The notes under the pieces were generated by a model. That model ran no database searches. It had not been told where the DNA came from and worked only from the letters and a program-made list of their open reading frames with translations. From Streptomyces asoensis (GTDB lineage Bacteria; Actinomycetota; Actinomycetes; Streptomycetales; Streptomycetaceae), in NCBI RefSeq assembly GCF_013085465.1, contig NZ_CP049838.1:682001-746000 (forward strand): a stretch of DNA of 64,000 bases, read 5' to 3'. This document shows, in pieces, positions 31,824-32,912 of the stretch (the stretch's first letter is position 1; each line of letters starts with the position of its first letter). A program made the position numbers and the translations under genes.

Positions 31824-32762
31824 TCAGCCGATCCGCCAGGGACGGAGCTTCTCGGGGTTGCGCACCGCCCAGATGTGCCTGATCCGGTCGCCCGCGATCT
31901 CGAACGCGAACACGGTCGCGATGTCGCCGTCCTGCCGCGCCACCAGGCCGGGCAGCCCGTTGACCGTGCACTCCCGGAACGTCGTGCGGTCGCCCGACAC
32001 CCGGGAGATCTCGGCGTAGGCATGTGCGACCTGCTCACCGCCCACGATCCGGTGCAGATGGGTGACGGCCAGCCCGCCGCCGTCTGCGGTCGCGGTGGCG
32101 TCGGGATCGAGCAGGCCGATCAGGGCGTCGATGTCCTTCGCCTCCCACGCCGTCCTGAACTGCCTGACGATGCCGGCCTGCCCGGCACTCGGGCCCGCCG
32201 AGGTCTGCGAGTTGCGGATGCGACGACGGGCGGACGAGGCCAGTTGGCGGCACGCCGCCGGAGTGCGGCCGACGATCTCGGCGACCTCGCCGAACGGGTA
32301 GCGGAAGACGTCGTGCAGGACGAACGCGACGCGCTCGGCCGGGGTCATCGCATCGAGGACGACCAGGAAGGCCATCGTCACCGACTCGTCGAGAGTGACC
32401 CGATCGGCCGGGTCGATCCCGCCGACGCCGGAGCGCCCGGTGATCCACTCCGTGGGCTCGGGCAGCGGTTCCGGGATCCAGTCGCCCACGTACGTCTCCC
32501 GCCTGGCCCGCGCCGAGCCGAGCAGGTTCAGGCAGGTGCGGCTGGCGACCGTCACCAGCCAGGCGCCGGGCGACTCGATGGCCTGCTGCTCCCGCGCGGA
32601 CATGGCGTACCAGCGGGCGTAGGTCTCCTGCACGACGTCCTCGGCGTCGGCAAGCGATCCGAGGAGTCGATAGCCGAGATTGATCAGCCGGCGCCGCTCG
32701 CTCATGATCGCGCTGAGGCCCGGATCGCTCTGGTCGTCGCCGGGCTCGGCTCTGGTGGTCAT
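31824..32762 (-). CDS. sigJ: ECF41/SigJ-type sigma factor with fused SnoaL-like C-terminus
   Basis: 312 residues from the ATG at 32762. Region 2 (about 20-85) includes YRLLGSLADAEDVVQETYARW; region 4 (about 125-185) includes MTPAERVAFVLHDVFRYPFGEVAEIVGRTPAACRQL. The linker carries WIPEP at 95-99 and the C-terminal NTF2/SnoaL-like extension carries DGGG at 227-230. These correspond to the WLPEP and DGGGK/R hallmarks of the ECF41 group, where the fused domain controls sigma activity in place of an anti-sigma factor. It diverges from a SnoaL-LUD fusion gene, and both start regions carry the same ECF41-like promoter. The sigJ symbol reflects resemblance only. Confidence 0.9.
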   Translation of the reverse strand: MTTRAEPGDDQSDPGLSAIMSERRRLINLGYRLLGSLADAEDVVQETYARWYAMSAREQQAIESPGAWLVTVASRTCLNLLGSARARRETYVGDWIPEPLPEPTEWITGRSGVGGIDPADRVTLDESVTMAFLVVLDAMTPAERVAFVLHDVFRYPFGEVAEIVGRTPAACRQLASSARRRIRNSQTSAGPSAGQAGIVRQFRTAWEAKDIDALIGLLDPDATATADGGGLAVTHLHRIVGGEQVAHAYAEISRVSGDRTTFRECTVNGLPGLVARQDGDIATVFAFEIAGDRIRHIWAVRNPEKLRPWRIG

Positions 32763-32807
32763 GGTCCGGCGGTCTCCCTCGCTCGCTGCTGTGCCTCTAC
32801 CCGTTAC

Positions 32808-32834
32808 GACAAGACAGCGCACCGGAATGTGAGG
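32808..32834 (-). promoter_or_regulatory. Putative ECF41-type promoter of the sigma gene
   Basis: Reading the minus strand, CCTCACA (32834-32828) is followed after exactly 16 bases by TGTC (32811-32808). The published ECF41 promoter pattern is TGTCACA-N16-CGTC, so five of seven and three of four positions agree. It is 46 bases upstream of the ATG at 32762. Its -35 element lies in the left arm of the 14-bp inverted repeat at 32822-32835. Confidence 0.65.
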
Positions 32835-32845
32835 CCGACGCACCG

Positions 32846-32872
32846 CCTCACATTCCGGAGGGCCGCGTTGTC
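32846..32872 (+). promoter_or_regulatory. Putative ECF41-type promoter of the SnoaL-LUD gene
   Basis: CCTCACA (32846-32852), 16 bases, TGTC (32869-32872): identical in elements and spacing to the minus-strand promoter at 32808-32834. It is 40 bases upstream of the ATG at 32913. The two -35 regions form a perfect 14-bp inverted repeat (32822-32835 with 32845-32858, spacer nine bases). Confidence 0.7.
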
Positions 32873-32912
32873 TTACCGGTGAGGACGGCAACACGACGGA
32901 GAGGAAACTCGG

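Follow-up and report, generated by a model that had tools for sequence, protein, structure and literature searches.

The closest described systems to the locus reported here are the ECF41 sigma factors of the extracytoplasmic function (ECF) group and their partner genes. In Table 4 of Wecke et al. (2012; PMC3426412), 36 of 55 divergent loci have the ECF41 motif upstream of the ECF gene and 41 have it upstream of the partner; both genes often carry it, and the -10 elements of two promoters tested there read TGTT or CGTC. For the ECF41 member RpoE9/SMb20029 of S. meliloti, a transcript start has been reported from the promoter TGTCACA-N16-CGTC (PMC6180224), behind which partner and sigma gene lie in the same direction. 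We analysed a 64,000-nt window of Streptomyces asoensis (NZ_CP049838.1, 682,001 to 746,000 of the forward strand; positions below are those of this window unless stated otherwise), in which an ECF41-type, SigJ-like sigma gene and a gene for a fused SnoaL_4-LUD protein diverge from a 150-bp gap. As in the loci of Wecke et al., a divergent ECF41 gene and partner share a bipartite motif with 16-bp spacing, here on both sides; the motif is TGTCACA/CGTC there and CCTCACA/TGTC here. Very probably, the gap consists of two back-to-back promoters read by the adjacent sigma factor, which would thus activate both itself and the SnoaL-LUD gene.

Because the motif often precedes both genes in the survey of Wecke et al., the bidirectional principle is not new, and our locus represents a known arrangement in a well conserved variant form. 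The same count (36 of 55 before the ECF gene) overturns the contrast drawn in the preliminary description, that ECF41 members usually control the partner and not themselves. Apparently new are the LUD or SnoaL-LUD partner, the variant pairing an asparagine at sigma residue 79 (N79) with TGTC, the back-to-back layout that relatives retain and the likewise conserved dissimilarity of its two halves. The main text of Wecke et al. does not mention a palindrome, inverted repeat or symmetry, and we found no description of the mirror geometry in the open-licence literature, supplements being outside the scope of that search.

Membership of the ECF41 family is indicated by several features. The sigma factor carries Pfam Sigma70_r2 and Sigma70_r4_2, with SnoaL_2 below its gathering score (22.6 vs 27); it passes the NCBIfam SigJ model NF007214 (296 bits, cut-off 271) and aligns over residues 17-305 with M. 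tuberculosis SigJ (5xe7, E 2e-44), the homology including the SnoaL-like C-terminal part, so that the ECF41 combination of sigma2, sigma4 and a C-terminal SnoaL-like domain is present. In this alignment SigJ has D where the sigma factor here has N79. Both hallmarks named beforehand, WIPEP (within YVGDWIPEP) and DGGG, occur in the protein together with NPEKL; relative to the ECF41 signatures, the linker YVGPWLPEP and C-terminal NPDKL (PMC7730460), two residues and one residue are changed. No anti-sigma family was detected in three scanned neighbours (the SpoIIE phosphatase, the SnoaL-LUD protein and a 112-aa open reading frame (ORF) without any hit), matching the ECF41 trait of no obvious adjoining anti-sigma gene. 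A COE partner, common in ECF41 loci and not required, is replaced by SnoaL_4-LUD; 34% of ECF41 genes are listed without a COE partner (PMC3426412). The proposed likeness of the sites to the ECF41 target TGTCACA-N16-CGTC is partial, with the spacing of 16 identical and five of seven -35 and three of four -10 bases in agreement, the -10 difference accompanying N79.

CCTCACA-N16-TGTC has exactly two matches in the window, at 32808-32834 (-) and 32846-32872 (+), with 0.03 expected and two matches reached in none of 100 shuffles. Markov shuffling of the intergenic gap (200,000 rounds) produced the plus-strand match 8 times and matches on both strands never, so the pair exceeds chance. The 14-bp perfect inverted repeat with a nine-base spacer that had been described is also real (32822-32835 and 32845-32858, exact reverse complements), and is in fact the core of a longer repeat whose 35-nt arms, 80% complementary with the inner 14 bp exact, span both -10 elements.

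The paired sites are conserved. The sigma protein was the sole criterion for choosing 80 loci of named genomes (the best 80 of 561); 67 of these have both sites at a score of 9/11 or higher, compared with 3 of 800 shuffles, and the gap between the -35 heptamers in the 67 is 11 bp in 54, 10 in 5, 12 in 3, 8 in 3, 28 in one and 33 in one. Of 394 genomes in a class-wide draw, 58 have a homologue with an E value no higher than 1e-85, and the 72 loci read from it comprise 45 with both sites, 3 with the ECF side only, 8 with the partner side only and 16 with neither. Combined, both sites are present in 128 of 167 distinct loci (shuffles, 1/1002), with gaps of 10-12 bp in 99 of the 128 and of 0 in 11. 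Orthologous intergenic regions thus keep the motif pair, the loss of which would have spoken against the preliminary description. A search on DNA alone, in which the two promoters could lie 3-33 bp apart, gave a match in 24 of 392 genus genomes, our own included, and none of 392 for the reversed control; in all 24 fetched loci (L122-L145, of which L125 is the window) the start of an ECF homologue adjoins the motif. When the gap was fixed at 11, a phylum-wide search matched our own genome alone among 396, most of the drawn genomes being far relatives. The distance from -35 to GTC is 16 in 278 cases, with further peaks at 11 (110) and 13 (59); by eye, the peak at 11 stems from a TGTC within the ECF-side spacer.

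The first base of the -10 element follows a single sigma residue. We compared 85 distinct dyads with a gap of 8-12 bp, GTC in each -10 and 6/7 or more matches in each -35. They include 61 of the 80 protein-chosen loci, and in 60 of those 61 the first -10 base is equal on both sides, the exception being G/T. Residue 79 is the sigma column that best tracks this base. Over 167 distinct loci, of which 91 have D at this position, good sites (score of at least 9/10) number 137 on the ECF side and 140 on the partner side. N79 goes with T in 66/66 good ECF-side and 70/70 good partner-side sites, and D79 with C in 67/67 and 66/67, the single miss being L102, whose partner -10 is broken. On the partner side, residue 79 splits T from C completely, and the next best column reaches 89%. 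Three T79 loci and one S79 locus fall outside this scheme: two T79 loci have unequal -10s (L027, C on the ECF side and T on the partner side; L053, G/T), in the third only the ECF-side site is good (T), and the S79 locus L143 is T/T. The terminal-repeat copy L004, 11 duplicates and four N79 loci with partial or frameshifted sigma genes or no sites (L028, L033, L132 and L134) were left out of the count; L132 and L134 agree with the code, L033 has no clear site and L028 contradicts it on the ECF side.

Several observations weigh against a shared code and a shared reader. The heptamer CCTCACA departs from the published ECF41 -35, TGTCACA, at two of seven positions, and in the class-wide draw the pair is incomplete or absent in 27 of 72 loci. 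When the threshold is lowered to 8/10, off-code N/D sites appear in 5/144 cases on the ECF side and 5/158 on the partner side, among them L002 (N79, CGTC, ECF side) and L062 (N79, CGTC with spacing 15, partner side); many such low-scoring sites appear to be fortuitous. L028, whose sigma match covers residues 9-94 only and which lies outside the tree, combines N79 with CGTC on the ECF side and TGTC on the partner side. The independent events are also few: the best tree shows 8 changes of residue 79, 9 of the ECF-side base and 8 of the partner-side base, and well supported branches hold 2-3 independent pairs, with 2 pairs in the same direction per test, none in the opposite, and one ECF-side change without a partner change. 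A smaller, more careful tree gives 5 changes each and 3 supported pairs, all in the same direction. With so few supported pairs, a tree-corrected test cannot reach 0.05, and the evidence from tree and code that one sigma factor reads both promoters may be called good but not tree-proof. Conservation and the shared -10 code tied to residue 79 together make the adjacent sigma factor the most likely reader of both, and so lend support to the compact bidirectional ECF41-type promoter suggested in the preliminary description.

The position of residue 79 is consistent with this role. In M. tuberculosis SigH, residue N88 contributes to opening of the -10 element (PMC6411747); counting from a shared tryptophan, R75 of the sigma factor here falls at N88, which places residue 79 one helical turn further on, a fitting position from which it may read the base pair just upstream. 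The code provides a natural series in which one sigma residue and two facing -10s change recognition together. A sigma/promoter code was reportedly the subject of a study by Todor et al. in 2020. Covariation of sigma residues with promoter bases has been reported for ECF sigma factors in general (review, PMC8103513), so this type of link is already known. The code also varies among paralogues within a single genome (for example, L074 and L094 of Microbispora bryophytorum), and this should insulate their circuits from one another.

The two halves share some bases and differ in others. In the 128 two-sided loci, the six bases directly before the -10 are mostly CTGTCT on the ECF side and CTGCGT on the partner side (in the window, CTGTCT at 32812-32817 (-) and CCGCGT at 32863-32868 (+)). 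Downstream of the -10, both sides have a conserved G (95%), followed two bases on by A in 82 and 90%; the partner side of the window has T in place of the conserved G. The fourth -35 base (C or G) shows no clear covariation between sides in the 85 dyads (65 CC, 14 CG, 3 GC and 3 GG; p 0.09).

Could a separate dimeric regulator instead use the inverted repeat as its operator, with the promoter likeness secondary or the operator overlying one real promoter? The near-perfect arms and the 11-bp gap in 54 of 67 two-sided loci would suit an operator, as would two conserved gap bases that the published ECF41 motif does not cover: among the 51 loci with an 11-bp gap, 49 have G at position 1 and 49 have C at position 8. 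An operator would not readily account for sites that persist at gaps from 0 to 113 bp, for a single site kept in 11 of 72 class-draw loci, or for the 16-bp -35/-10 spacing and a -10 base that tracks sigma residue 79. Moreover, of four scanned local proteins (sigma factor, partner, SpoIIE phosphatase and the 112-aa ORF without hit), only the sigma factor contains a DNA-binding family, and we regard the operator as improbable. A narrower role for the sigma factor, in which it drives only the partner promoter while another sigma factor expresses its gene and the mirror copy is merely left over as a relic from an earlier inverted duplication, would agree with the control of the partner gene or operon by the two ECF41 sigma factors tested by Wecke et al. 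(PMC3426412) and with the excess of partner-only over ECF-side-only loci (8 against 3 of 72). A relic would be expected to decay, whereas good ECF-side sites are nearly as common as partner-side ones and obey the same code; this explanation is very unlikely.

Under the preferred reading of two promoters served by the adjacent sigma factor, RNA polymerase carrying it would on either strand recognise CCTCACA as the -35 and TGTC as the -10 element, with N79 in region 2 matched to the T that opens both -10s. Rightward transcription of the SnoaL-LUD gene and leftward transcription of the sigma gene would follow, the latter closing a positive feedback loop that may be triggered when the C-terminal SnoaL-like domain releases the sigma factor. 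Starts are predicted near 32881 (+) and 32799 (-), 82 bp apart. Judged from its sequence, the region is a candidate for bench tests as a compact self-activating bidirectional promoter. A further idea, which we put forward tentatively and think rather doubtful, is that the 11-bp geometry is itself functional: two holoenzymes would sit upstream edge to upstream edge, their firing mechanically coupled and either cooperative or mutually exclusive, with the difference before the -10s setting the ratio. If so, clades with a gap of 0 would work only by exclusion.

Such abutting -35s occur in L159, L165, L166, L169-L171, L173, L182, L184, L201 and L217 (10 of 11 in family f91), and L154 has a gap of 22. 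Helical phasing of the gap (0, 11, 22) is not claimed, as gaps of 1, 3, 8, 14, 23, 34, 41, 45, 61, 72, 90 and 113 are found too. By eye, the region upstream of the ECF gene is rearranged in L060 (abutting arms, sigma match from residue 20), in L090 and L105 (repeated -35 elements) and in L103 (other repeats).

The partner protein matches Pfam SnoaL_4 (E 1.2e-16) and LUD_dom (E 1.2e-17). Across the 80 protein-chosen loci, partners comprise SnoaL and LUD in one frame (19), LUD alone (27), SnoaL alone (3), SnoaL and LUD in separate frames (1) and neither (30); five scanned from these last 30 gave CMD (2), DoxX_2 (1), FMN_red (1) and no hit (1), and the partner of the own-genome paralogue locus L002 is likewise CMD. 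The promoter pair thus persists while the partner changes. The letters LUD are absent from the main text of Wecke et al. (PMC3426412); LUD and SnoaL-LUD proteins can be added to the likely ECF41 targets, a hint to their role.

Table 1. Features of the divergent locus, in window coordinates
Feature	Position	Strand	Basis
ECF41-type (SigJ-like) sigma factor, 312 aa, N at residue 79 of region 2	31824..32762	-	Pfam, NCBIfam, structure match
Divergent partner, SnoaL_4 domain fused to LUD domain, 366 aa	32913..34013	+	Pfam
-35 element CCTCACA, sigma-gene promoter	32828..32834	-	Pattern search, inspected sequence
-10 element TGTC, sigma-gene promoter	32808..32811	-	Pattern search; T agrees with N79
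-35 element CCTCACA, partner promoter	32846..32852	+	Pattern search, inspected sequence
-10 element TGTC, partner promoter	32869..32872	+	Pattern search; T agrees with N79
11-bp stretch separating the -35 heptamers	32835..32845	.	Same length in 83/128 two-sided loci
Left arm of 35-nt inverted repeat	32801..32835	+	Repeat analysis
Right arm of 35-nt inverted repeat	32845..32879	-	Repeat analysis
Possible ribosome-binding site of partner, GGAGAGG	32898..32904	+	By eye
Possible ribosome-binding site of sigma gene, GAGGGAG	32774..32780	-	By eye

Far relatives extend the comparison. Thirteen loci from plasmid records have D (11) or N (2) at residue 79; the two with N79 (L233 and L234, Streptomyces, 36% identity) are without a full-score site, and L224, L231 and L232, annotated as divergent, carry full-score CGTC sites on both strands, placed in L231 and L232 unlike the 11-bp layout. 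The S. meliloti locus matched by the RpoE9 promoter string, in an unannotated record, combines CGTC with D79, in agreement with the code, and its spacer ends in CTGTCT, like the ECF side here. Two S. meliloti loci also have a full-score TGTGACA-N16-TGTC on the other strand, contrary to the code for D; no divergent partner is known there.

Within the whole 10.04-Mb genome, CCTCACA-N15-17-TGTC occurs 13 times, compared with 5 for the reversed control, and a longer consensus with at most 3 mismatches 8 times, compared with 0. These 8 include both copies studied here, one site before a CMD-family gene beside the 72% identical sigma paralogue of L002, two CGTC sites that are each found near both chromosome ends, and one site with no following ORF of 60 aa within 250 nt. 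At the chromosome ends lie mirrored copies of a D79 paralogue (71154-72077 and 9972224-9973147, chromosome coordinates), with CGTC sites at matching distances (101494 and 9942781), which points to inverted repeats at the termini that extend over about 101 kb or more.
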